Source of the DNA: Phytopythium helicoides
Lineage: Eukaryota > Oomycota > Peronosporomycetes > Pythiales > Pythiaceae
DNA length: 64,000 nt
Direction of reading: 5' to 3'
Assembly: GCA_024867545.1 (NCBI GenBank)
Contig: JANFNE010000011.1
Coordinates: 806,001-870,000, forward strand
Made by a program: the position numbers and the translations under genes. This document shows, in pieces, positions 1 through 47,503 of this stretch (the first letter of the stretch is position 1; the number at the start of each line of letters is the position of its first letter). The notes beneath the pieces were generated by a model. That model saw nothing but the letters and a program-made list of their open reading frames with translations. It made no database searches and was not told the origin of the DNA.

Positions 1-323
1 AGAACAGAACAAGGGACGTGATGAGGCAACTTGAATGTGGTTGTGGCGAGTGTTGGTCAGTTACGAATGTTGTGCGTGTGAAGTGAAGTATTCGTTACGT
101 GTGTGTGTGTGTGTGTTTGTGTTTGTATGTTTGTATGTATGTGTGAGTGTTGATCATGTGGTCATTTTTATGCGTTGAAAAGTTTGTGTGATGTGGTATG
201 ATAGTGTGTTGTGTGTTGTTGTTGAGTTTGGTGTGTTGTGTGGGTGTGTTGGTTGTTTGATGAGGGTGTGTTGTTGCTATTTGAGGGTGTGTTGATTGTG
301 GTGTTTGTTGCGGAATGGTGTGA

Positions 324-404
324 GACAGCTTGGCCGAGTGGTTAAGGCGATAGCCTGCTAAGTTATTGGGGAAACCCGCGTGAGTTCGAATCTCACAGCT
401 GTCG
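324..404 (+). tRNA. tRNA-Ser(GCU), unit 1
   Basis: This is a class II tRNA that decodes the serine codons AGC and AGU. The 7-bp acceptor GACAGCT pairs with AGCTGTC. The anticodon loop CTGCTAA holds GCT at the 34-36 position, closed by ATAGC/GTTAT. A long variable arm (TGGG, GAAA loop, CCCG) and the T arm GTGAG-TTCGAAT-CTCAC follow. The A box and B box are therefore internal. A TTTT run follows within about 10 bases and fits Pol III termination. No intron and no encoded CCA are present. Confidence 0.97.
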
Positions 405-603
405 ATTCTTTTCTTTCTTGGTTCTTTCCCACCACTCTCTTTTCTCATTTCCCACCCATCCCATCCGACCTCGAGCGCCATCCACACCATCTGCTGGTGT
501 CGATGGGTCTGCGTATTTGTTTTGTTTTGTTTTGTTTTGTTGTTCTCGTCTTGTCCATTTCCCACTTGTCTTTGCGAGGGAGCAAAGCAAAGTCGAAAGT
601 GGT

Positions 604-622
604 TTTGGACATGGCGTCCAAA
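604..622 (+). promoter_or_regulatory. Inverted repeat upstream of U6 (PSE candidate), unit 1
   Basis: TTTGGAC, a 5-nt centre and GTCCAAA form a perfect 7-bp inverted repeat at about -54 to -36 relative to the inferred U6 start. The arms are kept in both unit families and at the same offset in nearly all units; units 19 and 22 change only the centre. Its place just upstream of the TATA box suggests a proximal element for a Pol III type 3 promoter. That role is inferred. Confidence 0.55.
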
Positions 623-628
623 GACGAG

Positions 629-636
629 TATTTATA
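629..636 (+). promoter_or_regulatory. TATA box of U6, unit 1
   Basis: TATTTATA lies about 29 bases before the inferred 5' end of U6. This is the spacing known for TATA-containing Pol III type 3 U6 promoters. It is present at the matching place in nearly every unit; unit 3 has GTTTTTATA instead. Confidence 0.75.
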
Positions 637-657
637 GGTGTGTGGGAGGCGGTGAAA

Positions 658-685
658 GTAGGAACCACTTCGGTGGTCATCCGTA

Positions 686-716
<31 letters not shown>

Positions 717-766
717 GGCCCCTGCGCAAGGATGACACGCATAAATCGAGAAGTATCGCACTTTTT
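658..766 (+). ncRNA. U6: U6 spliceosomal snRNA, unit 1
   Basis: U6 is the catalytic snRNA of the spliceosome. The 5' stem-loop ACCAC-TTCG-GTGGT is followed by AAAATTGGAACGATACAGAG, which contains the ACAGAG box. Next come the AGATTAGC catalytic triad region and the near-invariant GCATGGCCCCTGCGCAAGG. The tail ends in TTTTT, which serves as the Pol III terminator and Lsm-binding end. The 5' end is estimated from the TATA spacing and may be off by a few bases. About 109 nt, normal for the family. Confidence 0.95.
762..766 (+). terminator. Pol III T5 terminator of U6, unit 1
   Basis: A run of five T directly ends the U6 sequence. The same run ends every U6 copy. Confidence 0.8.
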
Positions 767-897
767 ATGGAGGTGTCGTACAACCATGTGAACTCAATCC
801 AACCATCGCGAGTTGGGTTGATTTGGTGGCGTGATGGTATTTGGAAAAGAAGGTGCAGAAGGAGAGTTGTGTGCGCGTGGAAAAAGATGGAAAAGGC

Positions 898-968
898 TGA
901 GGGAAGAGGGATCGAACCCCCGACCGCTGGGACTGGAATCCAGCGCTCTACCACTGAGCTATTCCCCC
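898..968 (-). tRNA. tRNA-Trp(CCA), unit 1
   Basis: Read on the minus strand, the acceptor GGGGGAA pairs with TTCCCTC (one G-U) and the discriminator is A. The D arm is AGCTCAGTGGTAGAGC. The anticodon loop TTCCAGT gives CCA, with G37 as in eukaryotic tRNA-Trp. It decodes UGG. The closing pair of the anticodon stem is A31-C39, a mismatch shared by all copies. This copy has one G fewer in the T-arm side than the others. T-runs (TTTTCC, then TTTTT) lie just downstream on the minus strand and fit Pol III termination. Confidence 0.9.
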
Positions 969-1075
969 ATTGCATATCATTCGCATCACACAAACACAAC
1001 AAACCATCCAGCTACTATTCCACACACACAACACACACAACACACACAACACACAAACAAACAAACAAACAACTA

Positions 1076-1125
1076 CCGGACTCGACCAGGTCAGTGGGAC
1101 TCGATGATCGAATGACGGAACGATG
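1076..1125. other. Conserved block between tRNA-Trp and tRNA-Thr, unit 1
   Basis: A non-repetitive block starting ACCGGACTCGACCAGGTC sits in the middle of the otherwise GT/CA-rich spacer between the divergent Trp and Thr genes. It is about 110 bp from both gene starts. It is kept in all units of both families. In family B the centre reads GTCGGTGGGACCCGAC, which can form a 5-bp hairpin. Its role is unknown; it could be a shared upstream element or a small RNA. Confidence 0.4.
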
Positions 1126-1238
1126 TGTGTGTGGTATGTGTGTGTTTGTGTTTGTGGTATAGTTTGTGGTTGTTGTTTGTGGTGGTGTTTGTTTGTGAGT
1201 GGTGTGTAGTATGTAGTGTTTGTGTGTGTAGTCCGTAA

Positions 1239-1310
1239 GCCCCTATAGCTCAGTGGTAGAGCACTCGCTTCGTAAGCGAAAGGTCGGTGGTTCGATCCCG
1301 CCTGGGGGCT
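1239..1310 (+). tRNA. tRNA-Thr(CGU), unit 1
   Basis: The acceptor GCCCCTA pairs with TGGGGGC and the discriminator is T. The D arm is AGCTCAGTGGTAGAGC. The anticodon loop TTCGTAA gives CGT, which decodes ACG, a codon favoured in GC-rich genes. The T arm is GGTGG-TTCGATC-CCGCC. The outermost anticodon-stem pair is a C-A mismatch in all copies. TTTT follows 5-6 bases downstream and a longer T run a little later, fitting Pol III termination. Confidence 0.95.
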
Positions 1311-2145
1311 CATCTTTTCATATTCTCACTTTTTTTCACTCACTCGCTCACACTCCCTTCCTTCCTTCTTTTCACACAATTCGTGTGGCACACACACAAC
1401 ACATCACCTCACTCGGACACATTCACATCGACATACCCTTTCGCTTCTTTTCCTCTCTGACACATTCACACCCATTTATACCATCCCATTCTGTCATCAC
1501 ATCCACCCGATCGACCTCGCATTAGTTTGTTTGCATATGCATTAGTATGCTTGCTACTTTCACGCTACGCTGTTTCCTACTCAAACCAACACTCTTTCTT
1601 TCCATCAAGCACTTTGCTTTCCATTCCAGTACAAGAAACGGACAACCGTGTCGCCATCAATCAGATCAACGAAATGATGACGGTTTCTTTCGCCTGCAAC
1701 GCATCGATAGTGTGCGAACTTGCTGCTCGTTTCATGCCTCATGCACACGAAGAGAAAGAAACTGGAAAAAGAAAGAAAGAAAGGACACAAAAGGACACAA
1801 ATCAAATCGACAAATCGACACAGAACAGAACAAGGGACGTGATGAGGCAACTTGAATGTGGTTGTGGCGAGTGTTGGTCAGTTACGAATGTTGTGCGTGT
1901 GAAGTGAAGTATTCGTTACGTGTGTGTGTGTGTGTGTTTGTGTTTGTATGTTTGTATGTATGTGTGAGTGTTGATCATGTGGTCATTTTTATGCGTTGAA
2001 AAGTTTGTGTGATGTGGTATGATAGTGTGTTTGTGTGTTGTTGTTGAGTTTGGTGTGTTGTGTGTTGGTGTGTTGGTTGTTTGATGAGGTGTGTGTTGCT
2101 ATTTGAGGGTGTGTTGATTGTGGTGTTTGTTGCGGAATGGTGTGA
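1311..2145. other. Long Thr-to-Ser spacer, unit 1 (pattern repeated in each unit)
   Basis: About 835 bp here, up to about 960 bp in family B, without a recognisable gene. It begins with a C/T- and CA-rich stretch. A non-repetitive core follows (about 1,575-1,900, with words such as TTTCCATTCCAGTACAAG and GTGCGAACTTGCTGCTCG). It ends with an almost pure G/T strand (GTGTGTGTTTGTATG) leading to tRNA-Ser. The core is conserved in all units, but indels between units break any reading frame. Confidence 0.6.
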
Positions 2146-2226
2146 GACAGCTTGGCCGAGTGGTTAAGGCGATAGCCTGCTAAGTTATTGGGGAAACCCG
2201 CGTGAGTTCGAATCTCACAGCTGTCG
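2146..2226 (+). tRNA. tRNA-Ser(GCU), unit 2
   Basis: Intact copy, identical to unit 1. Confidence 0.96.
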
Positions 2227-2478
2227 ATTCTTTTCTTTCTTGGTTCTTTCCCACCACTCTCTTTTCTCATTTCCCACCCATCCCATCCGACCTCGAGCGC
2301 CATCCACACCATCTGCTGGTGTCGATGGGTCTGCGTATTTGTTTTGTTTTGTTTTGTTTTGTTGTTCTCGTCTTGTCCATTTCCCACTTGTCTTTGCGAG
2401 GGAGCAAAGCAAAGTCGAAAGTGGTTTTGGACATGGCGTCCAAAGACGAGTATTTATAGTGTGTGGGAGGCGGTGAAA

Positions 2479-2506
2479 GTAGGAACCACTTCGGTGGTCA
2501 TCCGTA

Positions 2507-2537
<31 letters not shown>

Positions 2538-2587
2538 GGCCCCTGCGCAAGGATGACACGCATAAATCGAGAAGTATCGCACTTTTT
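2479..2587 (+). ncRNA. U6: U6 snRNA, unit 2
   Basis: Intact copy ending in TTTTT. Confidence 0.95.
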
Positions 2588-2718
2588 ATGGAGGTGTCGT
2601 ACAACCATGTGAACTCAATCCAACCATCGCGAGTTGGGTTGATTTGGTGGCGTGATGGTATTTGGAAAAGAAGGTGCAGAAGGAGAGTTGTGTGCGCGTG
2701 GAAAAAGATGGAAAAGGC

Positions 2719-2790
2719 TGAGGGAAGAGGGGATCGAACCCCCGACCGCTGGGACTGGAATCCAGCGCTCTACCACTGAGCTATTCCCCC
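2719..2790 (-). tRNA. tRNA-Trp(CCA), unit 2
   Basis: Intact 72-nt copy; taken as the reference form for the array. Confidence 0.95.
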
Positions 2791-3064
2791 ATTGCATATC
2801 ATTCGCATCACACAAACACAACAAACCATCCAGCTACTATTCCAACACACACACAACACACACAACACACACAACACACAAACAAACAAACAAACAACTA
2901 CCGGACTCGACCAGGTCAGTGGGACTCGATGATCGAATGACGGAACGATGTGTGTGTGGTATGTGTGTGTTTGTGTGTTGTGGTATAGTTTGTGGTTGTT
3001 GTTTGTGGTGGGTGTTTTTTGTGAGTGGTGTGTAGTATGTAGTGTTTGTGTGTGTTAGTCCGTA

Positions 3065-3136
3065 ACCCCTATAGCTCAGTGGTAGAGCACTCGCTTCGTA
3101 AGCGAAAGGTCGGTGGTTCGATCCCGCCTGGGGGCT
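3065..3136 (+). tRNA. tRNA-Thr(CGU), unit 2, 5' base lost
   Basis: The first G of the acceptor is missing (AACCCCTATAG instead of AAGCCCCTATAG), which removes the G1-C72 pair. The rest is intact. Confidence 0.8.
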
Positions 3137-3971
3137 CATCTTTTCATATTCTCACTTTTTTTCACTCACTCGCTCACACTCCCTTCCTTCCTTCTTTTCA
3201 CACAATTCGTGTGGCACACACACAACACATCACCTCACTCGGACACATTCACATCGACATACCCTTTCGCTTCTTTTCCTCTCTGACACATTCACACCCA
3301 TTTATACCATCCCATTCTGTCATCACATCCACCCGATCGACCTCGCATTAGTTTGTTTGCATATGCATTAGTATGCTTGCTACTTTCACGCTACGCTGTT
3401 TCCTACTCAAACCAACACTCTTCTTTCCATCAAGCACTTTGCTTTCCATTCCAGTACAAGAAACGGACAACCGTGTCGCCATCAACCGAGATCAACGAAA
3501 TGATGACGGTTTCTTTCGCCTGCAACGCATCGATAGTGTGCGAACTTGCTGCTCGTTTCATGCCTCATGCACACGAAGAGAAAGAAACTGGAAAAAGAAA
3601 GAAAGAAAGGACACAAAAGGACACAAATCAAATCGACAAATCGACACAGAACAGAACAAGGGACGTGATGAGGCAACTTGAATGTGGTTGTGGCGAGTGT
3701 TGGTCAGTTACGAATGTTGTGCGTGTGAAGTGAAGTATTCGTTACGTGTGTGTGTGTGTGTTTGTGTTTGTATGTTTGTATGTATGTGTGAGTGTTGATC
3801 ATGTGGTCATTTTTATGCGTTGAAAAGTTTGTGTGATGTGGTATGATAGTGTGTTGTGTTGTTGTTGAGTTTGGTGTGTTGTTGTGTTGGTGTGTTTGTT
3901 TGTTTGATGAGGGTGTGTTGTTGCTATTTGAGGGTGTGTTTGATTGTGGTGTTTGTTGCGGAATGGTGTGA

Positions 3972-4052
3972 GACAGCTTGGCCCGAGTGGTTAAGGCGAT
4001 AGCCTGCTAAGTATTGGGAAACCCGCGTGAGTTTCGAATCTCACAGCTGTCG
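3972..4052 (+). tRNA. tRNA-Ser(GCU), unit 3, indel-bearing
   Basis: Extra C in the D arm, missing T and G around the variable arm, extra T in the T arm. Either a decayed copy or unpolished sequence. Confidence 0.65.
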
Positions 4053-4303
4053 ATTCTTTCTTTCTTGGTTCTTTCCCACCACTCTCTGTTCTCATCTTCC
4101 CACCATCCAATCCGACCTCGAGCGCCCATCCCACACATCTGGTGTCGATGGGTCTGCGTATTTGTTTTGTTGTGTTTTGTTTTGTTGTTCTCCTCTTGTC
4201 CATTTCCCACTTGTCTTTGCGAGGGAGCTAAAGCAAAGTCGAAAGTGGTTTTGGACATGGCGTCCAAAGACGAGTTTTTATAGTGTGTGGGAGGCGGTGG
4301 AAA

Positions 4304-4329
4304 GTAGGAACCACTTCGGTGGTCATCCG

Positions 4330-4361
<32 letters not shown>

Positions 4362-4411
4362 GGCCCCTGCGCAAGGATGACACGCATAAATCGAGAAGTA
4401 TCGCACTTTTT
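4304..4411 (+). ncRNA. U6: U6 snRNA, unit 3
   Basis: One A fewer before TTGGAACG; core otherwise intact. The TATA box reads TTTTTATA. Confidence 0.85.
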
Positions 4412-4544
4412 CTGGGAGGTGTCGTACAACCATGTGAACTCAATCCAACCATCGCGAGCTTGGGTGATTTGTGGGCGTGATTGGTATTTGGAAAAGAAGG
4501 TGCAGATGGAGAGTTGTGTGCGCGTGAACAAAGATGGAAAAGGC

Positions 4545-4618
4545 TGAAGGGGAAGAGGGATCGAACCCCCGACCGCTGGGACTGGAATCCAGCGCTCTAA
4601 CCACTGAGCTATTCCCCC
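4545..4618 (-). tRNA. tRNA-Trp(CCA), unit 3, indel-bearing
   Basis: Extra bases in the D-arm/anticodon-stem side (CTCTAACC on +) and in the 3' acceptor side. Confidence 0.65.
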
Positions 4619-4898
4619 ATTGCATATCATTCGCATCACCAAACACAACAAACCATCCAGCTACTATTCCAACACACACACAACACACACAACACACACA
4701 CACACAAACAAACAAACAACAACTACCGGACTCGACCAGGTCAGTGGGACTCGATGATCGAATGACGGAACGATGTGTGTGTGGTATGTGTGGTGTGTGT
4801 TTGTGGTTAGTTTGTGGTTGTTGTTTGTGGTGGTGTTTGTTTGTGTTTGTGTGTGTGAGTGGTGTGTAGTATGTAGTGTTTGTGTGTGTTGTCCGTAA

Positions 4899-4968
4899 GC
4901 CCCGTATAGTCAGGTAGAGCACTCGCTTCGTAAGCGAAAGGTCGGTGGTTCGATCCCGCCTGGGGGCT
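4899..4968 (+). tRNA. tRNA-Thr(CGU), unit 3, D arm damaged
   Basis: The 5' part reads GCCCCGTATAGTCAGGTAGAGC, so the acceptor has an extra G and the D arm has lost bases. Anticodon and T arms are intact. Confidence 0.6.
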
Positions 4969-5798
4969 CATCTTTTCATATTCTCACTTTTTTTCACTCA
5001 CTCGCTCACACTCCCTTCCTTCCTTCTTTTCACACAATTCGTGTGGCACACACACAACACATCACCTCACTCGGACACATTCACATCGACATACCCTTTC
5101 GCTTCTTTTCCTCTCTGACACATTCACACCCATTTATACTACCATCCCATTCTGTCATCCACATCCACCCGATCGACACTCGCATTAGTTGTTTGCATAT
5201 GCATTAGTATGCTTGCTACTTTCACGCTACGCTGTTTCCTACTCAAACCAACACTCTTTCTTTCCATCAAGCACTTTGCTTCCATCCAGTACAAGAAACG
5301 GACAACCGTGTCGCCATCAACCGAGATCAACGAAATGATGACGGTTTCTTTCGCCTGCACGCATCGATAGTGTGCGAACTTGCTGCTCGTTTCATGCCTC
5401 ATGCAACACGAAGAGAAAGAAACTGAAAAAGAAAGAAAGAAAGGACACAAAAGGACACAAATCAAATCGACAAATCGACACAGAACAGAACAAGGGACGT
5501 GATGAGGCAACTTGAATGTGGTTGTGGCGAAGTGTTGGTCAGTACGAATGTTGTGCGTGTGAAGTGAAGTATTCGTTACGTGTGTGTGTGTGTGTGTTTG
5601 TGTTTGTATGTTTGTATGTATGTGTGAGTGTGATCATGTTTTATGCGTTGAAAAGTTTGTGTGATGTGGTATGATAGTGTGTTGTGTGTTGTTGTTGAGT
5701 TTGGTGTGTTGTGTGTTGGTGTGTTGGTTGTTTGATGAGGGTGTGTTGTTGCTATTTGAGGGTGTGTTGATTGTGGTGTTTGTTGCGGAATGGTGTGA

Positions 5799-5879
5799 GA
5801 CAGCTTGCCGAGTGGTTAAGGCGATAGCCTGCTAAGTTATTGGGGAAACCCCGCGTGAGTTCGAATCTCACAGCTGTCG
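5799..5879 (+). tRNA. tRNA-Ser(GCU), unit 4, indel-bearing
   Basis: One G missing in the D arm (CTTGCCGAG) and one extra C in the variable arm. Confidence 0.7.
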
Positions 5880-6144
5880 ATTCTTTTCTTTCTTGGGTTC
5901 TTTCCCACCACTCTCTTTTCTCATTTCCCCACCCATCCCATCCGACCTCGAGCGCCATCCACACCATCTGCTGGTGTCGATGGGTCTGCGGTATTTGCTT
6001 TTGTTTTGTTTTGGTTTGTTGTTTCGCCTCTTGTCCATTTCCCACTTGTCTTTGCGAGGGAGCCAAGCAAAGTCGAAAGTGGTTTTGGACACATGGCATC
6101 CAAAGACGAGTATTTATAGGTGTGTGGGAGGCGGTGAAATGAAA

Positions 6145-6172
6145 GTAGGAACCACTTCGGTGGTCATCCGTA

Positions 6173-6203
<31 letters not shown>

Positions 6204-6253
6204 GGCCCCTGCGCAAGGATGACACGCATAAATCGAGAAGTATCGCACTTTTT
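6145..6253 (+). ncRNA. U6: U6 snRNA, unit 4
   Basis: U6 body intact. Four extra bases between the TATA box and the start (GTGAAATGAAAG) change promoter spacing. Confidence 0.9.
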
Positions 6254-6384
6254 ATGGAGGTGTCGTACAACCATGTGAACTCAATCCAACCATCGCGAGT
6301 TGGGTTGATTTGGTGGCGTGATGGTATTTGGAAAAGAAGGTGCAGAAGGAGAGTTGTGTGCGCGTGGAAAAAGATGGAAAAGGC

Positions 6385-6458
6385 TGAGGGAAGAGGGGAT
6401 CGAACCCCCGACCGCTGGGACTGGAATCCAGCGCTCTACCACTGAGCTATTCCCACCC
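6385..6458 (-). tRNA. tRNA-Trp(CCA), unit 4, acceptor insertion
   Basis: The 5' acceptor strand has an inserted base (TTCCCACCC on +). The rest is intact. Confidence 0.7.
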
Positions 6459-6719
6459 ATTGCATTATCATTCGCATCACACAAACACAACAAACCATCC
6501 AGCTACTATTCCAACACACACACAACACACACAACACACAAACAAACAAACAAACAACTACCGGACTCGACCAGGTCAGTGGGACTCGATGATCGAATGA
6601 CGGAACGATGTGTGTGTGGTATGTGTGTGTTTGTGTTTATAGTTTGTGGTTGTTGTTGTGGTGGTGTTTGTTTTGTGAGTGGTGTGTAGTATGTAGTGTT
6701 TGTGTGTGTTAGTCCGTAA

Positions 6720-6793
6720 GCCCCTATAGCTCAGTGGTAGAGCACTCGCGTTCGTAAGCGAAAGGTCGGTGGTTCGATCACCGCCTGGGGGCT
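6720..6793 (+). tRNA. tRNA-Thr(CGU), unit 4, indel-bearing
   Basis: Extra G in the anticodon stem (CTCGCGTTCG) and extra A in the T arm (GATCACCGCC). Confidence 0.65.
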
Positions 6794-7631
6794 CATCTTT
6801 TCATATTCTCACTTTTTTTCACTCACCTCGCTCACACTCCCTTCCTTCCTTCTTTTCACACAATTCGTGTGGCACACACACAACACATCACCTCCACTCG
6901 GACACATTCACATCGACATACCCTTTCGCTTCTTTTCCTCTCTGACACATTCACACCCATTTATACCATCCCATTCTGTCATCACATCCACCCGATCGGA
7001 CCTCGCATTAGTTTGTTTGCATATGCATTAGTATGCTTGCTACTTTCACGCTACGCTGTTTCCTACTCAAACCAACACTCTTTCTTTCCATCAAGCACTT
7101 TGCTTTCCATTCCAGTACAAGAAACGGACAACCGTGTCCAACCGAGATCAACGAAATGATGACGGTTTCTTTCGCCTGCAAAAGCATCGATAGTGTGCGA
7201 ACTTGCTGCTCGTGTTCATGCCTCATGCACACGAAGAGAAAGAAACTGGAAAAAGAAAGAAAGAAAAGGACACAAAAGGACACAAATCAAATCGACAAAT
7301 CGACACAGAACAGAACAAGGGACGTGATGAGGCAACTTGAATGTGGTTGTGGCGAGTGTTGGTCAGTTACGAATGTTGTGCGTGTGAAGTGAAGTATTCG
7401 TTACGTGTGTGTGTGTGTGTTTTGTGTTTGTATGTTTGTATGTATGTGTGAGTGTTGATCATGTGGTCATTTTTATGGCGTTGAAAAGTTTGTGTGATGT
7501 GGTATGATAGTGTGTTGTGTGTTGTTGTTGAGTTTGGTGTGTTGTGTGTTGGTGTGTTGGTTGTTTGATGAGGGTGTGTTGTTGCTATTTGAGGGTGTGT
7601 TGATTGTGGTGTTTGTTGCGGAATGGTGTGA

Positions 7632-7714
7632 GACAGCTCTTGGCCGAGTGGTTAAGGCGATAGCCTGCTAAGTTATTGGGGAAACCCGCGTGAGTTCGAA
7701 TCTCACAGCTGTCG
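7632..7714 (+). tRNA. tRNA-Ser(GCU), unit 5, acceptor insertion
   Basis: Two extra bases after the acceptor (GACAGCTCTTGG). The remainder is intact. Confidence 0.75.
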
Positions 7715-7967
7715 ATTCTTTTCTTTCTTGGTTCCTTTCCCACCACTCTCTTTTCTCATTTCCCACCCATCCCATCCGACCTCGAGCGCCATCCACACCA
7801 TCTGCTGGTGTCGATGGGTCTGCGTATTTGTTTTGTTTGTTTTGTTTTGTTGTTCTCCTCTTGTCCATTTCCCACTTGTCTTTGCGAGGGAGCAAAGCAA
7901 AGTCGAAAGTGGTTTTGGACATGGCGTCCAAAGACGAGTATTTATAGGTGTGTGGGAGGCGGTGAAA

Positions 7968-7995
7968 GTAGGAACCACTTCGGTGGTCATCCGTA

Positions 7996-8026
<31 letters not shown>

Positions 8027-8076
8027 GGCCCCTGCGCAAGGATGACACGCATAAATCGAGAAGTATCGCACTTTTT
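7968..8076 (+). ncRNA. U6: U6 snRNA, unit 5
   Basis: Intact copy. Confidence 0.94.
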
Positions 8077-8204
8077 ATGAGGTGTCGTACAACCATGTGA
8101 CTCAATCCAACCATCGCGAGTTGGGTTGATTTGGTGGCGATGGTATTTGGAAAAAGAAGGTGCAGAAGGAGAGTTGTGTGCGCGTGGAAAAAGATGGAAA
8201 AGGC

Positions 8205-8278
8205 TGAGGGAAGAGGGGATCGAGAACCCCCGACCGCTGGGACTGGAATCCAGCGCTCTACCACTGAGCTATTCCCCC
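8205..8278 (-). tRNA. tRNA-Trp(CCA), unit 5, T-loop insertion
   Basis: Two extra bases in the T arm (GATCGAGAACC on +). Confidence 0.7.
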
Positions 8279-8551
8279 ATTGCATATCATTCGCATCACA
8301 CAAACACAACAAACCATCGAGCTACTATTCCAACACACACACAACACCACACAACACACAACACACAAACAAACAAACAAACAACTACCGGACTCGACCA
8401 GGTCAGTGGGACTCGATGATCGAATGACGGAACGATGTGTGTGTGGTATGTGTGTGTTTGTGTTTGTGGTATAGTTTGTGGTTGTTGTTTGTGGTGGTGT
8501 TTGTTTGTGAGTGGTGTGTAGTATGTAGTGTTTGTGTGTGGTTAGTCCGTA

Positions 8552-8622
8552 GCCCCTATAGCTCAGTGGTAGAGCACTCGCTTCGTAAGCGAAAGGTCGG
8601 TGGTTCGATCCGCCTGGGGGCT
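8552..8622 (+). tRNA. tRNA-Thr(CGU), unit 5, one base short
   Basis: One C missing in the 3' T stem (GATCCGCC). The rest is intact. Confidence 0.75.
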
Positions 8623-28087: not shown

Positions 28088-28168
28088 GACAGCTTGGCCG
28101 AGTGGTTAAGGCGATAGCCTGCTAAGTTATTGGGGAAACCCGCGTGAGTTCGAATCTCACAGCTGTCG
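28088..28168 (+). tRNA. tRNA-Ser(GCU), unit 16
   Basis: Intact copy. Confidence 0.96.
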
Positions 28169-28436
28169 ATTCTTTTCTTTCTTTCTTGGTTCTTTCCCAC
28201 CATTCTCCTTTCTCATTTCCCATCCCATCCCATCCCATCCGACCTCGAGACTCGAGACTCGAGCGTCATCCATGCCATCTGCTGGGGTTGATGGATCTCC
28301 GTTTTTGTTTTTGTTTTTGTTTTTCGTTCTCCTCTTGTCCATTTCCCACTTGTCTTTGCGAGACAGCAAAGTCGAAAGTGGTTTTGGACATGGCGTCCAA
28401 AGACGAGTATTTATAGGTGTGACGGATGCGGTGAAA

Positions 28437-28464
28437 GTAGGAACCACTTCGGTGGTCATCCGTA

Positions 28465-28495
<31 letters not shown>

Positions 28496-28545
28496 GGCCC
28501 CTGCGCAAGGATGACACGCATAAATCGAGAAGTATCGCACTTTTT
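28437..28545 (+). ncRNA. U6: U6 snRNA, unit 16
   Basis: Intact copy. Confidence 0.95.
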
Positions 28546-28689
28546 ATGGAGTCGTCGTGCAAACATGTGAATGCAATCCAACCATAGCGAGTTGGCTTGA
28601 TTTGGTGGCGTGATGGTATTTGGAAAAGGAGGTGCGTGGATAAGGAGAGTTGTGTGCGCGCGGAAAAAGATGGAAAAGATGGAAAAGGC

Positions 28690-28761
28690 TGAGGGAAGAG
28701 GGGATCGAACCCCCGACCGCTGGGACTGGAATCCAGCGCTCTACCACTGAGCTATTCCCCC
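28690..28761 (-). tRNA. tRNA-Trp(CCA), unit 16
   Basis: Intact copy. Confidence 0.95.
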
Positions 28762-29020
28762 ATTGCATTTCATTCACACCACACTAACACACCAAACCAT
28801 CGAGCTACCATTCCAACACACACACACACACACAACATCAACACACAACTACCGGACTCGACCAGGTCGGTGGGACCCGACGATCGAATGACGAAATGAT
28901 GTGTGTGTGGTGTGGTATATGTGTGTTTGTGGTGGTCGTTGTGTTTGTGTTTGTTGTTTGTGGTGGTGTTAGTTTGTGTGTGATGTGTAGTATGTAGTGT
29001 TTGTGTGTGTTAGTCCGTAA

Positions 29021-29092
29021 GCCCCTATAGCTCAGTGGTAGAGCACTCGCTTCGTAAGCGAAAGGTCGGTGGTTCGATCCCGCCTGGGGGCT
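29021..29092 (+). tRNA. tRNA-Thr(CGU), unit 16
   Basis: Intact copy. Confidence 0.95.
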
Positions 29093-29808
29093 CATCTTTT
29101 CATATTATCACCTTTTTCACACACACACACACACACACTCCCTTCCTTCCTTCTTTTCACACACTTCGTGTGTCACACACACACACAACACATCACTTCA
29201 CTCCGACACATTCACATATACATACACTTTCACTTCCTTTCCTCTCCGACACATTCACACACATTTCTACCATACCATTGTGTCCTCACATCGACTCGAC
29301 CACCCGACCTCGCACTCGTTTGCATTTGCATTATTCTTGTTACTTTCACGCTCTTCCCTACTCAAACCAACACTCTTTCTTTCTATCTTTCTATCAATCA
29401 CTTTGTTTTCCAGTACAAGAAACGAGAAACGGACAAGCGAGTCGCCATCAACCGAGTTCAACCTAACGTCATGATGACTGTTTCTTTCGCCTGCAACTCA
29501 TCGATACATTGTCATTCGTAGTGTGCGAACTTGCTGCTCGTTCCATGCGTCATGCACACGAAGAGAAACTGGAAGAAGAAAGAAAGGACACAAAACAAAT
29601 CGACACAGAGCAATGAACGTGATCAGGCAACTTGAATGTGTTTTTGGCGAGTGTTGGTCAGTTACGAATGTTGTGTGTAAAGTGAGGTATTCGTCAAGTG
29701 TGTGTTTGTGTTTGCATGTTTGTATGTTTGTATGTTTGTATGTTTGTGTGAGTGTTAATCATGTGGTCGGTTGTGCGTTGAAAGTTGGTGTAATGTGATA
29801 TGATAATG

Positions 29809-29839
<31 letters not shown>

Positions 29840-29972
29840 GATTTTTGCGTGTTGTGTTTTGTGTTTTGTGGTATGTGTTGTTGGTGTGTGTTGTGTGTTG
29901 GTTGTTTGATGAGGGTGTGGTGTTGCGAATTGAGGGTGTGCTGGTTGTGGTGTGTGTTGTGGAATGGTGTGA

Positions 29973-34103: not shown

Positions 34104-34131
34104 GTAGGAACCACTTCGGTGGTCATCCGTA

Positions 34132-34162
<31 letters not shown>

Positions 34163-34212
34163 GACCCCTGCGCAAGGATGACACGCATAAATCGAGAAGT
34201 ATCGCACTTTTT
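34104..34212 (+). ncRNA. U6: U6 snRNA, unit 19, G-to-A variant
   Basis: The otherwise invariant GCATGGCCCC reads GCATGACCCC (A at 34,164, base 61 of the RNA as drawn here). Everything else is intact, and the centre of the upstream inverted repeat is TTGGC instead of ATGGC. Confidence 0.9.
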
Positions 34213-34347
34213 ATGGAGTCGTCGTGCAAACATGTGAACACAATCCAACCATAGCGAGTTGGCTTGATTTGGTGACGTGATGGTATTTGGAAAAGGAGGT
34301 GCGTGGATAAGGAGAGTTGTGCGCGCGCGGAAAAAGATTGAAAAGGC

Positions 34348-39389: not shown

Positions 39390-39470
39390 GACAGCTTGGC
39401 CGAGTGGTTAAGGCGATAGCCTGCTAAGTTATTGGGGAAACCCGCGTGAGTTCGAATCTCACAGCTGTCG
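39390..39470 (+). tRNA. tRNA-Ser(GCU), unit 22
   Basis: Intact copy. Confidence 0.96.
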
Positions 39471-39745
39471 ATTCTTTTCTTTCTTTCTTGGTTCTTTCCC
39501 ACCATTCTCCTTTCTCATTTCCCATCCCATCCCATCCCATCCGACCTCGAGACTCGAGACTCGAGCGCCATCCATGCCATCTGCTGGGGTTGATGGATCT
39601 CCGTTTTTGTTTTTGTTTTTGTTTTTTGTTTTTTGTTCTCCTCTTGTCCATTTCCCACTTGTCGTTGCGAGACAGCAAAGTCGAAAGTGGTTTTGGACTT
39701 GGCGTCCAAAGACGAGTATTTATAGGTGTGACGGATGCGGTGAAA

Positions 39746-39773
39746 GTAGGAACCACTTCGGTGGTCATCCGTA

Positions 39774-39804
<31 letters not shown>

Positions 39805-39854
39805 GACCCCTGCGCAAGGATGACACGCATAAATCGAGAAGTATCGCACTTTTT
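39746..39854 (+). ncRNA. U6: U6 snRNA, unit 22, G-to-A variant
   Basis: Carries the same substitution as unit 19 (GCATGACCCC, A at 39,806) together with the same TTGGC centre in the upstream inverted repeat. Confidence 0.9.
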
Positions 39855-39989
39855 ATGGAGTCGTCGTGCAAACATGTGAATGCAATCCAACCATAGCGAG
39901 TTGGCTTGATTTGGTGACGTGATGGTATTTGGAAAAGGAGGTGCGTGGATAAGGAGAGTTGTGCGCGCGCGGAAAAAGATTGAAAAGGC

Positions 39990-40061
39990 TGAGGGAAGAG
40001 GGGATCGAACCCCCGACCGCTGGGACTGGAATCCAGCGCTCTACCACTGAGCTATTCCCCC
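39990..40061 (-). tRNA. tRNA-Trp(CCA), unit 22
   Basis: Intact copy. Confidence 0.95.
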
Positions 40062-40325
40062 ATTGCATATCATTCACACCACACAAACACACCAAACCAT
40101 CGAGCTACCATTCCAACACACACACACACGCACACACACACAACACCAACGCAAAACTACCGGACTCGACCAGGTCGGTGGGACCCGATGATCGAATGAC
40201 GAAATGATGAGTGTGTGTGGTATGTGTGTGTTTGTGGTCGTGTTTGTGTTTGTGGTTGTTGTTTGTGTTTGTGTTTGTTTGTGTGTGGTGTGTAGTATGT
40301 ATTGTTTGTGTGTGTTAGTCCGTAA

Positions 40326-40397
40326 GCCCCTATAGCTCAGTGGTAGAGCACTCGCTTCGTAAGCGAAAGGTCGGTGGTTCGATCCCGCCTGGGGGCT
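40326..40397 (+). tRNA. tRNA-Thr(CGU), unit 22
   Basis: Intact copy. Confidence 0.95.
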
Positions 40398-41260
40398 CAT
40401 CTTTTCATGTTATCACCTTTTTCACACACACACACACACACACTCCCTTCCTTCCTTCTTTTCACACACTTCGTGTGTCACACACACACACAACACATCA
40501 CTTCACTCCGACACATTCACATATACATACACTTTCACTTCCTTTCCTCTCCGACACATTCACACACATTTCTACCATACCATTGTGTCCTCACATCGAC
40601 TCGACCACCCGACCTCGCACTCGTTTGCATTTGCATTATTCTTGTTACTTTCACGCTCTTTCCTACTCAAACCAACACTCTATCTTTCTATCTTTCTATC
40701 AATCACTTTGTTTTCCAGTACAAGAAACGGACAAGCGAGTCGCCATCAACCGAGTTCAACCTAACGTCATGATGACTGTTTCTTTCGCCTGCAACTCATC
40801 GATACATTGTCATTCGTAGTGTGCGAACTTGCTGCTCGTTCCATGCGTCATGCACACGAAGAGAAACTGGAAGAAGAAAGAAAGAACACAAAACAAATCG
40901 ACACAGAACAATGGACGTGATCAGGCAACTTGAATGTGTTTTTGGCGAGTGTTGGTCAGTTACGAATGTTGTGTGAAAAGTGAGGTATTTGTCAAGTGTG
41001 TGTTTGTGTTTGCATGTTTGTATGTTTGTATGTTTGTGTGAGTGTTGATCATGTGGTCGGTTGTGCGTTGAAAGTTGGTGTAATGTGATATGATAATGTG
41101 TTGTTGTTGTTGTTGTTGTTGATTTCTGCGTGTTGTGTTTTGTGTTTTGTGTTTTGTGGTATGTGTTGTTGGTGTGTGTTGTGTGTTGGTTGTTTGATGA
41201 GGGTGTGGTGTTGCGAATTGAGGGTGTGTTGATTGTGGTGTGTGTTATGGAATGGTGTGA

Positions 41261-41341
41261 GACAGCTTGGCCGAGTGGTTAAGGCGATAGCCTGCTAAGT
41301 TATTGGGGAAACCCGCGTGAGTTCGAATCTCACAGCTGTCG
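41261..41341 (+). tRNA. tRNA-Ser(GCU), unit 23
   Basis: Intact copy. Confidence 0.96.
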
Positions 41342-41616
41342 ATTCTTTTCTTTCTTTCTTGGTTCTTTCCCACCATTCTCCTTTCTCATTTCCCATCCCA
41401 TCCCATCCCATCCGACCTCGAGACTCGAGACTCGAGCGTCATCCATGCCATCTGCTGGGGTTGATGGATCTCCGTTTTTGTTTTTGTTTTTGTTTTTTGT
41501 TTTTTGTTCTCCTCTTGTCCATTTCCCACTTGTCGTTGCGAGACAGCAAAGTCGAAAGTGGTTTTGGACATGGCGTCCAAAGACGAGTATTTATAGGTGT
41601 GACGGATGGGGTGAAA

Positions 41617-41644
41617 GTAGGAACCACTTCGGTGGTCATCCGTA

Positions 41645-41675
<31 letters not shown>

Positions 41676-41725
41676 GGCCCCTGCGCAAGGATGACACGCA
41701 TAAATCGAGAAGTATCGCACTTTTT
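41617..41725 (+). ncRNA. U6: U6 snRNA, unit 23
   Basis: Intact copy. Confidence 0.95.
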
Positions 41726-41860
41726 ATGGAGTCGTCGTGTAAACATGTGAATGCAATCCAACCATAGCGAGTTGGCTTGATTTGGTGGCGTGATGGTATT
41801 TGGAAAAGGAGGTGCGTGGATAAGGAGAGTTGTGCGCGCGCGGAAAAAGATTGAAAAGGC

Positions 41861-41932
41861 TGAGGGAAGAGGGGATCGAACCCCCGACCGCTGGGACTGG
41901 AATCCAGCGCTCTACCACTGAGCTATTCCCCC
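41861..41932 (-). tRNA. tRNA-Trp(CCA), unit 23
   Basis: Intact copy. Confidence 0.95.
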
Positions 41933-42196
41933 ATTGCATATCATTCACACCACACAAACACACCAAACCATCGAGCTACCATTCCAACACACACACACAC
42001 GCACACACACACAACACCAACGCAAAACTACCGGACTCGACCAGGTCGGTGGGACCCGATGATCGAATGACGAAATGATGAGTGTGTGTGGTATGTGTGT
42101 GTTTGTGGTCGTGTTTGTGTTTGTGGTTGTTGTTTGTGTTTGTGTTTGTTTGTGTGTGGTGTGTAGTATGTATTGTTTGTGTGTGTTAGTCCGTAA

Positions 42197-42268
42197 GCCC
42201 CTATAGCTCAGTGGTAGAGCACTCGCTTCGTAAGCGAAAGGTCGGTGGTTCGATCCCGCCTGGGGGCT
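42197..42268 (+). tRNA. tRNA-Thr(CGU), unit 23
   Basis: Intact copy. Confidence 0.95.
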
Positions 42269-43154
42269 CATCTTTTCATGTTATCACCTTTTTCACACAC
42301 ACACACACACACACTCCCTTCCTTCCTTCTTTTCACACACTTCGTGTGTCACACACACACACAACACATCACTTCACTCCGACACATTCACATATACATA
42401 CACTTTCACTTCCTTTCCTCTCCGACACATTCACACACATTTCTACCATACCATTGTGTCCTCACATCGACTCGACCACCCGACCTCGCACTCGTTTGCA
42501 TTTGCATTATTCTTGTTACTTTCACGCTCTTTCCTACTCAAACCAACACTCTATCTTTCTATCTTTCTATCAATCACTTTGTTTTCCAGTACAAGAAACG
42601 AGAAACGGACAAGCGAGTCGCCATCAACCGAGTTCAACCTAACGTCATGATGACTGTTTCTTTCGCCTGCAACTCATCGATACATTGTCATTCGTAGTGT
42701 GCGAACTTGCTGCTCGTTCCATGCGTCATGCACACGAAGAGAAACTGGAAGAAGAAAGAAAGAACACAAAACAAATCGACACAGAACAATGGACGTGATC
42801 AGGCAACTTGAATGTGTTTTTGGCGAGTGTTGGTCAGTTACGAATGTTGTATGTGTAAAGTGAGGTATTTGTCAAGTGTGTGTTTGTGTTTGCATGTTTG
42901 TATGTTTGTATGTTTGTATGTTTGTGTGAGTGTTGATCATGTGGTCGGTTGTGCGTTGAAAGTTGGTGTAATGTGATATGATAATGTGTTGTTGTTGTTG
43001 TTGTTGTTGTTGTTGAGTTTCGTGTTTTGTGTTTTGTGTTTTGTGTTTTGTGGTATGTGTTGTTGGTGTGTGTAGTGAGTTGGTTGTTTGATGAGGGTGT
43101 GGTGTTGCGAATTGAGGGTGTGTTGATTGTGGTGTGTGTTATGGAATGGTGTGA

Positions 43155-43235
43155 GACAGCTTGGCCGAGTGGTTAAGGCGATAGCCTGCTAAGTTATTGG
43201 GGAAACCCGCGTGAGTTCGAATCTCACAGCTGTCG
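43155..43235 (+). tRNA. tRNA-Ser(GCU), unit 24
   Basis: Intact copy. Confidence 0.96.
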
Positions 43236-43510
43236 ATTCTTTTCTTTCTTTCTTGGTTCTTTCCCACCATTCTCCTTTCTCATTTCCCATCCCATCCCAT
43301 CCCATCCGACCTCGAGACTCGAGACTCGAGCGTCATCCATGCCATCTGCTGGGGTTGATGGATCTCCGTTTTTGTTTTTGTTTTTGTTTTTTGTTTTTTG
43401 TTCTCCTCTTGTCCATTTCCCACTTGTCGTTGCGAGACAGCAAAGTCGAAAGTGGTTTTGGACATGGCGTCCAAAGACGAGTATTTATAGGTGTGACGGA
43501 TGGGGTGAAA

Positions 43511-43538
43511 GTAGGAACCACTTCGGTGGTCATCCGTA

Positions 43539-43569
<31 letters not shown>

Positions 43570-43619
43570 GGCCCCTGCGCAAGGATGACACGCATAAATC
43601 GAGAAGTATCGCACTTTTT
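43511..43619 (+). ncRNA. U6: U6 snRNA, unit 24
   Basis: Intact copy. Confidence 0.95.
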
Positions 43620-43754
43620 ATGGAGTCGTCGTGTAAACATGTGAATGCAATCCAACCATAGCGAGTTGGCTTGATTTGGTGGCGTGATGGTATTTGGAAA
43701 AGGAGGTGCGTGGATAAGGAGAGTTGTGCGCGCGCGGAAAAAGATTGAAAAGGC

Positions 43755-43826
43755 TGAGGGAAGAGGGGATCGAACCCCCGACCGCTGGGACTGGAATCCA
43801 GCGCTCTACCACTGAGCTATTCCCCC
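43755..43826 (-). tRNA. tRNA-Trp(CCA), unit 24
   Basis: Intact copy. Confidence 0.95.
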
Positions 43827-44090
43827 ATTGCATATCATTCACACCACACAAACACACCAAACCATCGAGCTACCATTCCAACACACACACACACGCACAC
43901 ACACACAACACCAACGCAAAACTACCGGACTCGACCAGGTCGGTGGGACCCGATGATCGAATGACGAAATGATGAGTGTGTGTGGTATGTGTGTGTTTGT
44001 GGTCGTGTTTGTGTTTGTGGTTGTTGTTTGTGTTTGTGTTTGTTTGTGTGTGGTGTGTAGTATGTATTGTTTGTGTGTGTTAGTCCGTAA

Positions 44091-44162
44091 GCCCCTATAG
44101 CTCAGTGGTAGAGCACTCGCTTCGTAAGCGAAAGGTCGGTGGTTCGATCCCGCCTGGGGGCT
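44091..44162 (+). tRNA. tRNA-Thr(CGU), unit 24
   Basis: Intact copy. Confidence 0.95.
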
Positions 44163-45048
44163 CATCTTTTCATGTTATCACCTTTTTCACACACACACAC
44201 ACACACACACTCCCTTCCTTCCTTCTTTTCACACACTTCGTGTGTCACACACACACACAACACATCACTTCACTCCGACACATTCACATATACATACACT
44301 TTCACTTCCTTTCCTCTCCGACACATTCACACACATTTCTACCATACCATTGTGTCCTCACATCGACTCGACCACCCGACCTCGCACTCGTTTGCATTTG
44401 CATTATTCTTGTTACTTTCACGCTCTTTCCTACTCAAACCAACACTCTATCTTTCTATCTTTCTATCAATCACTTTGTTTTCCAGTACAAGAAACGAGAA
44501 ACGGACAAGCGAGTCGCCATCAACCGAGTTCAACGTAACGTCATGACGACTGTTCCTTTCGCCTGCAACTCATCGATACATTGTCATTCGTAGTGTGCGA
44601 ACTTGCTGCTCGTTCCATGCGTCATGCACACGAAGAGAAACTGGAAGAAGAAAGAAAGAACACAAAACAAATCGACACAGAACAATGGACGTGATCAGGC
44701 AACTTGAATGTGTTTTTGGCGAGTGTTGGTCAGTTACGAATGTTGTGTGAAAAGTGAGGTATTTGTCAAGTGTGTGTTTGTGTTTGCATGTTTGTATGTT
44801 TGTATGTTTGTATGTTTATGTGAGTGTTGATCATGTGGTCGGTTGTGCGTTGAAAGTTGGTGTAATGTGATATGATAATGTGTTGTTGTTGTTGTTGTTG
44901 TTGTTGTTGATTTCTGCGTGTTGTGTTTTGTGTTTTGTGTTTTGTGGTATGTGTTGTTGGTGTGTGTTGTGAGTTGGTTGTTTGATGAGGGTGTGGTGTT
45001 GCGAATTGAGGGTGTGTTGATTGTGGTGTGTGTTATGGAATGGTGTGA

Positions 45049-45129
45049 GACAGCTTGGCCGAGTGGTTAAGGCGATAGCCTGCTAAGTTATTGGGGAAAC
45101 CCGCGTGAGTTCGAATCTCACAGCTGTCG
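45049..45129 (+). tRNA. tRNA-Ser(GCU), unit 25
   Basis: Intact copy. Confidence 0.96.
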
Positions 45130-45404
45130 ATTCTTTTCTTTCTTTCTTGGTTCTTTCCCACCATTCTCCTTTCTCATTTCCCATCCCATCCCATCCCATC
45201 CGACCTCGAGACTCGAGACTCGAGCGTCATCCATGCCATCTGCTGGGGTTGATGGATCTCCGTTTTTGTTTTTGTTTTTGTTTTTTGTTTTTTGTTCTCC
45301 TCTTGTCCATTTCCCACTTGTCGTTGCGAGACAGCAAAGTCGAAAGTGGTTTTGGACATGGCGTCCAAAGACGAGTATTTATAGGTGTGACGGATGGGGT
45401 GAAA

Positions 45405-45432
45405 GTAGGAACCACTTCGGTGGTCATCCGTA

Positions 45433-45463
<31 letters not shown>

Positions 45464-45513
45464 GGCCCCTGCGCAAGGATGACACGCATAAATCGAGAAG
45501 TATCGCACTTTTT
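45405..45513 (+). ncRNA. U6: U6 snRNA, unit 25
   Basis: Intact copy. Confidence 0.95.
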
Positions 45514-45648
45514 ATGGAGTCGTCGTGTAAACATGTGAATGCAATCCAACCATAGCGAGTTGGCTTGATTTGGTGGCGTGATGGTATTTGGAAAAGGAGG
45601 TGCGTGGATAAGGAGAGTTGTGCGCGCGCGGAAAAAGATTGAAAAGGC

Positions 45649-45720
45649 TGAGGGAAGAGGGGATCGAACCCCCGACCGCTGGGACTGGAATCCAGCGCTC
45701 TACCACTGAGCTATTCCCCC
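45649..45720 (-). tRNA. tRNA-Trp(CCA), unit 25
   Basis: Intact copy; last tRNA-Trp of the array. Confidence 0.95.
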
Positions 45721-45984
45721 ATTGCATATCATTCACACCACACAAACACACCAAACCATCGAGCTACCATTCCAACACACACACACACGCACACACACAC
45801 AACACCAACGCAAAACTACCGGACTCGACCAGGTCGGTGGGACCCGATGATCGAATGACGAAATGATGAGTGTGTGTGGTATGTGTGTGTTTGTGGTCGT
45901 GTTTGTGTTTGTGGTTGTTGTTTGTGTTTGTGTTTGTTTGTGTGTGGTGTGTAGTATGTATTGTTTGTGTGTGTTAGTCCGTAA

Positions 45985-46056
45985 GCCCCTATAGCTCAGT
46001 GGTAGAGCACTCGCTTCGTAAGCGAAAGGTCGGTGGTTCGATCCCGCCTGGGGGCT
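45985..46056 (+). tRNA. tRNA-Thr(CGU), unit 25
   Basis: Intact copy; last tRNA-Thr of the array. Confidence 0.95.
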
Positions 46057-46941
46057 CATCTTTTCATGTTATCACCTTTTTCACACACACACACACACAC
46101 ACACACTCCCTTCCTTCCTTCTTTTCACACACTTCGTGTGTCACACACACACACAACACATCACTTCACTCCGACACATTCACATATACATACACTTTCA
46201 CTTCCTTTCCTCTCCGACACATTCACACACATTTCTACCATACCATTGTGTCCTCACATCGACTCGACCACCCGACCTCGCACTCGTTTGCATTTGCATT
46301 ATTCTTGTTACTTTCACGCTCTTTCCTACTCAAACCAACACTCTTTCCTTCTATCTTTCTATCAATCACTTTGTTTTCCAGTACAAGAAACGAGAAACGG
46401 ACAAGCGAGTCGCCATCAACCGAGTTCAACGTAACGTCATGACGACTGTTCCTTTCGCCTGCAACTCATCGATACATTGTCATTCGTAGTGTGCGAACTT
46501 GCTGCTCGTTCCATGCTTCATGCACACGAAGAGAAACTGGAAGAAGAAAGAAAGGACACAAAACAAATCGACACAGAGCAATGAACGTGATCAGGCAACT
46601 TGAATGTGTTTTTGGCGAGTGTTGGTCAGTTACGAATGTTGTGTGAAAAGTGAGGTATTTGTCAAGTGTGTGTTTGTGTTTGCATGTTTGTATGTTTGTA
46701 TGTTTGTATGTTTATGTGAGTGTTGATCATGTGGTCGGTTGTGCGTTGAAAGTTGGTGTAATGTGATATGATAATGTGTTGTTGTTGTTGTTGTTGTTGT
46801 TGATTTTTGCGTGTTGTGTTTTGTGTTTTGTGTTTTGTGGTATGTGTTGTTGGTGTGTGTTGTGTGTTGGTTGTTTGATGAGGGTGTGGTGTTGCGAATT
46901 GAGGGTGTGTTGGTTGTGGTGTGTGTTATGGAATGGTGTGA

Positions 46942-47022
46942 GACAGCTTGGCCGAGTGGTTAAGGCGATAGCCTGCTAAGTTATTGGGGAAACCCGCGTG
47001 AGTTCGAATCTCACAGCTGTCG
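46942..47022 (+). tRNA. tRNA-Ser(GCU), unit 26
   Basis: Intact copy in the truncated terminal unit. Confidence 0.96.
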
Positions 47023-47305
47023 ATTCTTTTCTTTCTTTCTTGGTTCTTTCCCACCATTCTCCTTTCTCATTTCCCACCCATCCCATCCCATCCCATCCCA
47101 TCCGACCTCGAGACTCGAGACTCGAGCGTCATCCATGCCATCTGCTGGGGTTGATGGATCTCCGTTTTTGTTTTTGTTTTTGTTTTTGTTTTTTGTTCTC
47201 CTCTTGTCCATTTCCCACTTGTCGTTGCGAGACAGCAAAGTCGAAAGTGGTTTTGGACATGGCGTCCAAAGACGAGTATTTATAGGTGTGACGGATGGGG
47301 TGAAA

Positions 47306-47333
47306 GTAGGAACCACTTCGGTGGTCATCCGTA

Positions 47334-47364
<31 letters not shown>

Positions 47365-47414
47365 GGCCCCTGCGCAAGGATGACACGCATAAATCGAGAA
47401 GTATCGCACTTTTT
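47306..47414 (+). ncRNA. U6: U6 snRNA, unit 26
   Basis: Intact copy with TATA box and upstream inverted repeat kept. It is the last RNA gene before the array ends. Confidence 0.95.
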
Positions 47415-47503
47415 ATGGAGTCGTCGTGCAAACATGTGAATGCAATCCAACCATAGCGAGTTGGCTTGATTTGGTGGCGTGATGGTATTTGGAAAAGGAG
47501 GTG

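Follow-up and report, generated by a model that had tools for sequence, protein, structure and literature searches.

The right 47.5 kb of a tandem array of small-RNA genes lies in a 64,000-nucleotide window of the Phytopythium helicoides genome (contig C4, JANFNE010000011.1, positions 806001 to 870000; "window" means this whole stretch). The repeat unit carries, in order, genes for tRNA-Ser(GCU), U6 small nuclear RNA (snRNA), tRNA-Trp(CCA) and tRNA-Thr(CGU). We think it probable that this is a composite array of the RNA polymerase III (Pol III) type, that U6 was captured into its repeat and homogenized there, and that it is likely the sole nuclear source of all four RNAs. One chromosomal spot would then likely supply RNA splicing and protein synthesis alike. 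What appears to be new is that U6 is built into an oomycete composite tRNA array and is found nowhere else in the assembly by the searches made.

Array extent and the likely source of the four RNAs

We analyzed 220 kb of C4, comprising the window, 146 kb to its left and 10 kb to its right, from an assembly of 49,062,832 bases in 100 contigs; no runs of N occur within these 220 kb. The whole array spans C4:739506-853504 (114 kb), continuing for 66.5 kb past the left edge of the window. Searching it by blastn with the four genes returned 62 tRNA-Ser(GCU), 62 U6, 61 tRNA-Trp(CCA) and 62 tRNA-Thr(CGU) copies, whole or damaged, whose order and orientation are constant along the entire array, with tRNA-Trp on the minus strand and convergent with the other three genes. 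The 61 units, each taken from one Ser gene to the next, average 1844 bases (range, 1794 to 1913). The leftmost element of the array is a lone Thr gene together with its 5' flank. At the right it ends in a partial unit on the plus strand (window 46942 to 47504), in which tRNA-Ser and U6 are followed by about 90 bp of U6 3' flank and then by unique sequence; this boundary (C4:853504) was placed with the consensus of the closer of two unit subfamilies, B.

Within the window (1 to 47504, plus strand), blastn found 26 Ser, 26 U6, 25 Trp and 25 Thr genes. The U6 count was matched by cmscan, whose 26 hits scored 89.7 to 102.8 bits against a gathering score of 44, and which also placed 75 tRNA matches above the gathering score. 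ARAGORN likewise called 75 tRNAs, by position 25 each of Ser, Trp and Thr, with the anticodon unreadable in 4. Over the 220 kb it called 180 tRNAs, including six with unreadable anticodons and one Gly(CCC), the last being an indel-bearing Trp copy at C4:790544. The first-pass annotation, which had described 26 tandem four-gene units of about 1.85 kb running beyond the left edge and ending at window position 47503, is thus confirmed to within one base at the right end, and the array is larger than it had noted. Its account needed correction as to the convergent Trp gene and the indels present in many mid-array gene copies. The same G-to-A change in the conserved core is present in two U6 copies (window 34109-34213 and 39751-39855), which could act as natural markers of expression. 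Short tandem repeats of GT/CA and TTG abound in the spacers (for example, window 28900-29010 and 29660-29870), reminiscent of those that separate genes in Entamoeba tRNA arrays.

The same annotation had proposed the array as the main source of U6, tRNA-Trp and tRNA-Thr(CGU), and it is in fact the only place in the assembly where we found these genes or tRNA-Ser(GCU). With a 29-base U6 core and up to 3 mismatches, all 59 matches in the assembly fell inside the array, whose three remaining U6 copies carry indels. A 31-place Ser(GCU) pattern, also with up to 3 mismatches, gave 107 matches. Among the best 100 of these, 55 were in the array, 2 were Ser(TGA) genes on contig C6 and 43 were Ser(AGA) genes on contig C35, leaving no Ser(GCU) gene outside the array among those 100; the other 7 are reverse-strand matches with 3 mismatches by sort order, and the C35 array has 3 further copies. 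Patterns joining the anticodon to the T arm placed 53 of 54 Trp matches and 51 of 52 Thr matches in the array, and the single outside match in each case is not a tRNA according to ARAGORN. Dispersed functional U6 or Trp genes, which would speak against such a role, were sought in these pattern searches and did not appear.

Some considerations weigh against exclusivity. The Trp and Thr patterns allowed zero mismatches and were limited to genes that lack an intron and have a standard variable loop. Of the copies in the array itself they recovered only 53 of 61 (Trp) and 51 of 62 (Thr), and they might therefore overlook a copy elsewhere that had diverged or contained an intron. Moreover, copy number and exclusivity are given for the assembly, and transcription is predicted. 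On balance, we consider it likely that the array is the only nuclear source of all four RNAs.

U4, U5 and U6 function as parts of a single particle. Compared with 62 U6 genes, the assembly yielded at least 7 matches to U2 (46 of 433 first-look candidates scored) and at least 1 to U5 (46 of 1250 scored), counts that are lower bounds and that temper the comparison. The disparity between 62 U6 genes and one detected U5 suggests that U6 number tracks the tRNA array rather than splicing demand, and the high copy number is likely a passenger effect, a by-product of tRNA-array expansion. The same disparity is a natural experiment on the importance, if any, of snRNA gene number.

Exchange between repeats and reliability of the copy number

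The units fall into two subfamilies arranged, from left to right, in blocks of seven A, five B, 33 A and 16 B. The A and B consensuses, whose alignment includes 196 gap columns, agree at 91.1% of aligned bases; identity is 100% in gene columns and 78.2% in spacer columns when gaps are counted as differences. The B consensus was built without units 7 and 45 to 48, which are mosaic or error rich, and unit tallies use all 61 units. At 158 diagnostic sites, the A-type units 0 and 6 each hold one internal B-type run (39 and 44 sites, respectively), units 7, 12, 45 and 48 switch type along their length, and units 53 to 60 carry 14 to 19 A-type sites each. Unit 47 is scrambled and carries 105 private substitutions. 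The best cases for gene conversion are units 0 and 6, located in the clean left end of the array. The mosaic units point to exchange between repeats, in keeping with the unequal crossing-over suggested in the first-pass annotation, and the overall pattern fits unequal crossing-over plus conversion, processes that have been discussed for the tRNA arrays of Entamoeba (PMC2652664) and Phytophthora infestans (PMC9584435).

How many units truly exist is a separate question, since the assembler could have duplicated or misordered the middle of a much shorter array. Private changes are few at both ends (means of 1.7 substitutions and 1.6 indel events per unit in left units 0 to 6, and 0.9 and 0.4 in right units 49 to 60) and many between, amounting to 13.1 substitutions and 10.8 indel events per unit in units 12 to 44 and to 45.0 and 25.0 in units 45 to 48, with zero in the middle units 20, 26 and 41. 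Set against the A consensus, the 33 middle A units show 575 indel events and 171 substitutions, and 207 of their 342 insertions extend a homopolymer, as unpolished long reads would give. Exact gene copies follow the same course, numbering 39 of 41 at the left, 90 of 156 in the middle and 48 of 50 at the right. Homogenization is expected to leave the middle of an array cleanest. The dirty middle runs against that expectation, and we read it as poorly polished long-read consensus, in which case the apparent mid-array tRNA pseudogenes, such as copies whose anticodons ARAGORN reads as gcct or gtct, are most simply sequence errors.

Other observations could also reflect misassembly. Junction units 7 and 48, both passing from A to B, are near identical (23 differing columns), and together with the alternating block order they fit a duplication or joined haplotypes; a duplicated, misjoined or haplotype-joined stretch could lie behind them. 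The mosaic units of the error-rich middle (12, 45 and 47) may be assembly chimeras. Against a greatly expanded assembly stand the 22 end units (0 to 9 and 49 to 60), which are near perfect and most of which differ by real variants, so that tens of units exist on sequence alone. In addition, the same assembly contains other arrays, with unit numbers ranging from 12 to at least 46, and read depth matched the assembly for the tRNA families of P. infestans (PMC9584435). We therefore regard a much shorter true array as possible yet rather unlikely. A count in the tens appears secure, while the exact count and the mid-array order are uncertain.

Two further alternatives are far less credible. The first, that the U6 copies are mostly nonfunctional passengers and that the working U6 sits in an unassembled or undetected place, draws on the fact that U6 pseudogenes are common in animals. 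However, 20 of the 26 U6 copies in the window share one score (102.8 bits), 46 of the 62 in the array are identical to the query across 106 bases, the pattern search revealed no U6 elsewhere in the assembly, and the contrast between fully conserved gene columns and spacers is what selection or biased conversion would give; we consider this alternative very improbable. The second holds that the array is structural, serving as a centromere, chromosome end or chromatin boundary, with its genes incidental. Entamoeba tRNA arrays have been proposed as chromosome ends (PMC2652664), and chromatin roles have been raised for the P. infestans arrays (PMC9584435). The array described here, however, lies in the middle of a contig of 1,471,556 bases with ordinary genes on either side, and its genes are conserved far above its spacers. 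The centromere or chromosome-end role floated in the first-pass annotation accordingly finds no support, and a structural explanation of any kind has very little probability in our view.

Candidate U6 promoter

In a representative unit, tRNA-Ser(GCU) (window 28088-28168, plus strand) has a T4 run just 3' of the gene; U6 (28440-28546, plus strand, inferred start; cmscan match at 28442-28546) ends in a T5 run; tRNA-Trp(CCA) (28690-28761, minus strand), convergent with U6, has T4, T4 and T5 runs downstream; and tRNA-Thr(CGU) (29021-29093, plus strand) is followed by T4 and T5 runs. Each of the four genes thus has its own T run at or just past its end. A and B boxes are present in the array tRNAs, and U6 has no A-box match allowing up to 2 substitutions.

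Upstream of U6, a 57-bp block (28365-28421, plus strand, mapped via the alignment) is identical in both subfamily consensuses and is the longest identical spacer run between them. In 10,000 column shuffles the longest identical run had a mean of 25.7, a 99th percentile of 42 and a maximum of 59, but column shuffling takes no account of clustered changes, so the conservation of the block is suggestive only. (The list of longest runs skips gene columns; its second entry, of 51, was joined across the Thr gene and was unused.) The block contains a perfect inverted repeat with 6-bp arms and a 5-bp center (28384-28400, plus strand; -56 to -40 from the inferred U6 start), a candidate upstream element, and a TATA-like box, TATTTATAG (28408-28416, plus strand; -32 to -24). 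The exact inverted repeat occurs in 55 copies among the 62 units of the array and in none in the flanks examined. The TATA-like sequence TATTTATAGG occurs 59 times in the 220 kb and, on the same strand, not at all in the 79-kb left and 26-kb right flanks. A TATA-like box about 30 bp 5' of U6 combined with a T-run terminator is the arrangement of a type 3 Pol III gene, and we propose the 57-bp block, with its TATA-like box and inverted repeat, as a candidate U6 promoter. The inverted repeat is absent 5' of the single U2 gene and the single U5 gene examined, and the region upstream of U6 resembled those of these two genes, whose starts were taken as the ends of Rfam matches, no better than shuffles did.

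Yeast U6 has a downstream B box. A GWTCRANNC match at window 28703 could suggest the same here, but it sits inside the convergent Trp gene and follows from the near-palindromic T arm of that gene, and so we did not count it as evidence. Spacer matches to miRNA, ycf2 and SCARNA7 were dismissed as far under their gathering scores. We predict separate transcription of the four genes, driven in the tRNAs by their internal A and B boxes and in U6 by the TATA-like box and inverted-repeat element that precede it.

A bolder proposal would be that across oomycetes U6 has been captured and permanently dosage locked to tRNA-Trp, tRNA-Ser(GCU) and tRNA-Thr(CGU), with the neighboring genes helping to activate U6 and one TFIIIC site serving two genes. 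The shared site would be the near-palindromic B box of the convergent tRNA-Trp, which also reads toward U6 about 264 bp from its start. We consider this proposal improbable. Were it true, contraction of the array would alter splicing and translation together. Should our main interpretation hold, the dosage of U6, an essential RNA of the spliceosome, and that of three tRNAs would be set together at a single recombining locus. The array also supplies a candidate U6 promoter of defined sequence from an oomycete; for guide RNAs, the RPL41 promoter has been named for oomycetes, especially Phytophthora, whereas U6 and other Pol III promoters are those used in fungi (PMC8382960).

Related arrays and neighboring sequence

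The tRNA part of the unit has a close published counterpart. In P. infestans, about 64% of tRNA genes lie in single-gene arrays and 36% in dimer or trimer arrays, among them a trimeric tandem array of tRNA-Ser(GCT), tRNA-Trp(CCA) and tRNA-Thr(CGT) on Chr1 and a Val(AAC)/Ser(AGA) dimer array with an 850-nt unit on Chr11 (PMC9584435). The trimer resembles our array in its three tRNAs and their anticodons, its location on one chromosome and its notable repeat diversity, and the dimer resembles the array on C35, which has a 1.07-kb unit. Since both P. infestans tRNA sets are matched here, the tRNA part was already known in oomycetes, and the first-pass claim that the coupling was undescribed can stand for U6 only. 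U6 goes unmentioned in the available text of that study, where "snrna" appears once, in a figure legend on repeats; its tRNA genes were called by tRNAscan-SE, which does not seek U6 (PMC9584435). We found no report of U6 inside such a tRNA unit in the open-access literature, as far as its texts were available, which is not proof of absence from print. The array has the head-to-tail unit of two or three different tRNA genes that characterizes composite tRNA arrays, and the Ser(GCT), Trp(CCA) and Thr(CGT) set in one place that characterizes the oomycete form. It departs from the tRNA-only unit, which the published description implies without stating it as a rule, in its 62 U6 genes, one per unit. 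The U6-bearing unit marks a variant of oomycete composite tRNA arrays rather than an exclusion from them. We suggest that U6 was captured into a preexisting Ser-Trp-Thr array of the P. infestans kind and that it was afterward multiplied and homogenized alongside the tRNAs as the repeats underwent unequal crossing-over and gene conversion.

More distant systems share parts of this arrangement. A U5/U6 repeat has reportedly been seen in Taenia, and U6 of Trypanosoma brucei depends on a neighboring tRNA-Thr. Entamoeba has tandem multi-tRNA units with short tandem repeats between genes, some with 5S RNA and one with a suspected snRNA beside tRNA-Thr (PMC2652664), but the lineage is distant and the gene sets differ, and in our array the gene that is not a tRNA is clearly U6. 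The SL-5S-U2 array of Diplonema likewise holds an snRNA gene within a tandem unit of other small-RNA genes, and tRNA genes are not described in that unit in the available text (PMC10161547). In trypanosomatids, U6 occurs in clusters with tRNA genes, but these comprise 2 to 10 genes in another layout and do not form a long tandem array (PMC2695483). U2 genes are found in arrays in Phytophthora (PMC4640811). Searching for the U6 core in a viral contig collection gave 0 matches. A genome contig collection gave 1, on contig JAIYDP010000129.1 of a metagenome-assembled genome, with no tRNA in the 2.6 kb examined. This bacterial contig holds an intact eukaryotic U6 gene, which likely reflects eukaryotic contamination of the bin.

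The P. helicoides genome holds at least eleven further tRNA arrays, as well as 5S arrays. The Val(AAC)/Ser(AGA) array (C35:1346426-1395717, with its right end beyond the stretch examined) has a unit of about 1.07 kb and at least 46 Ser copies. The others are Ile(TAT) (C4:1101-1107k), Arg(TCT) (C10:20-52k), Leu(CAA) (C14:35-68k), Lys(TTT) (C14:701-713k), Ala(TGC) (C20:182-213k, and a second from C30:459k on), Ala(AGC)/His(GTG) (from C25:254k on, with the His and Ala genes directly abutting), Phe(GAA) (C28:284-325k), Pro(CGG) (C42:517-536k) and Thr(TGT) (C57:1161-1187k). One sample from each of the eleven, compared with Rfam at E values up to 0.01, contained tRNA only and no snRNA, leaving the array in the window as the only one of the 12 looked at to carry an snRNA. 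The 5S rRNA arrays on C56, C98 and C99 have a spacing of 525 or 533 bases with gaps of several kilobases between listed copies, some of which may be unscored copies, as the best 47 candidates were scored; no tRNA or snRNA was found in the 5S units sampled.

To the right of the array, ordinary protein genes (window 51671-62266, minus strand) encode a phosphagen kinase, a TCP-1/cpn60 chaperonin, a GH81 glucanase and a malic enzyme. Seven of nine flanking open reading frames tested matched a Pfam family, with ordinary genes on both sides. Over its full length the phosphagen kinase is 85% identical to that of Pythium oligandrum, 84% to that of Nothophytophthora and 82% to that of Phytophthora ramorum; the best match of the GH81 protein is 76%, and its Phytophthora and Pythium-group matches are mostly 55 to 67%. 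By these two proteins the genome falls among oomycetes of the Peronosporales/Pythiales type.

Besides the 12 arrays, the matches listed include small inverted tRNA pairs and lone candidates. Opposite-strand pairs of identical tRNAs occur for Ser(TGA) at C6:240603-240979 and for an Arg-like CCG tRNA at C17:17015-18897 and C34:100321-102370. Finally, contigs C89, C91 and C92 carry many repeated, inverted organelle-like tRNA genes and are probably mitochondrial, with large inverted repeats.

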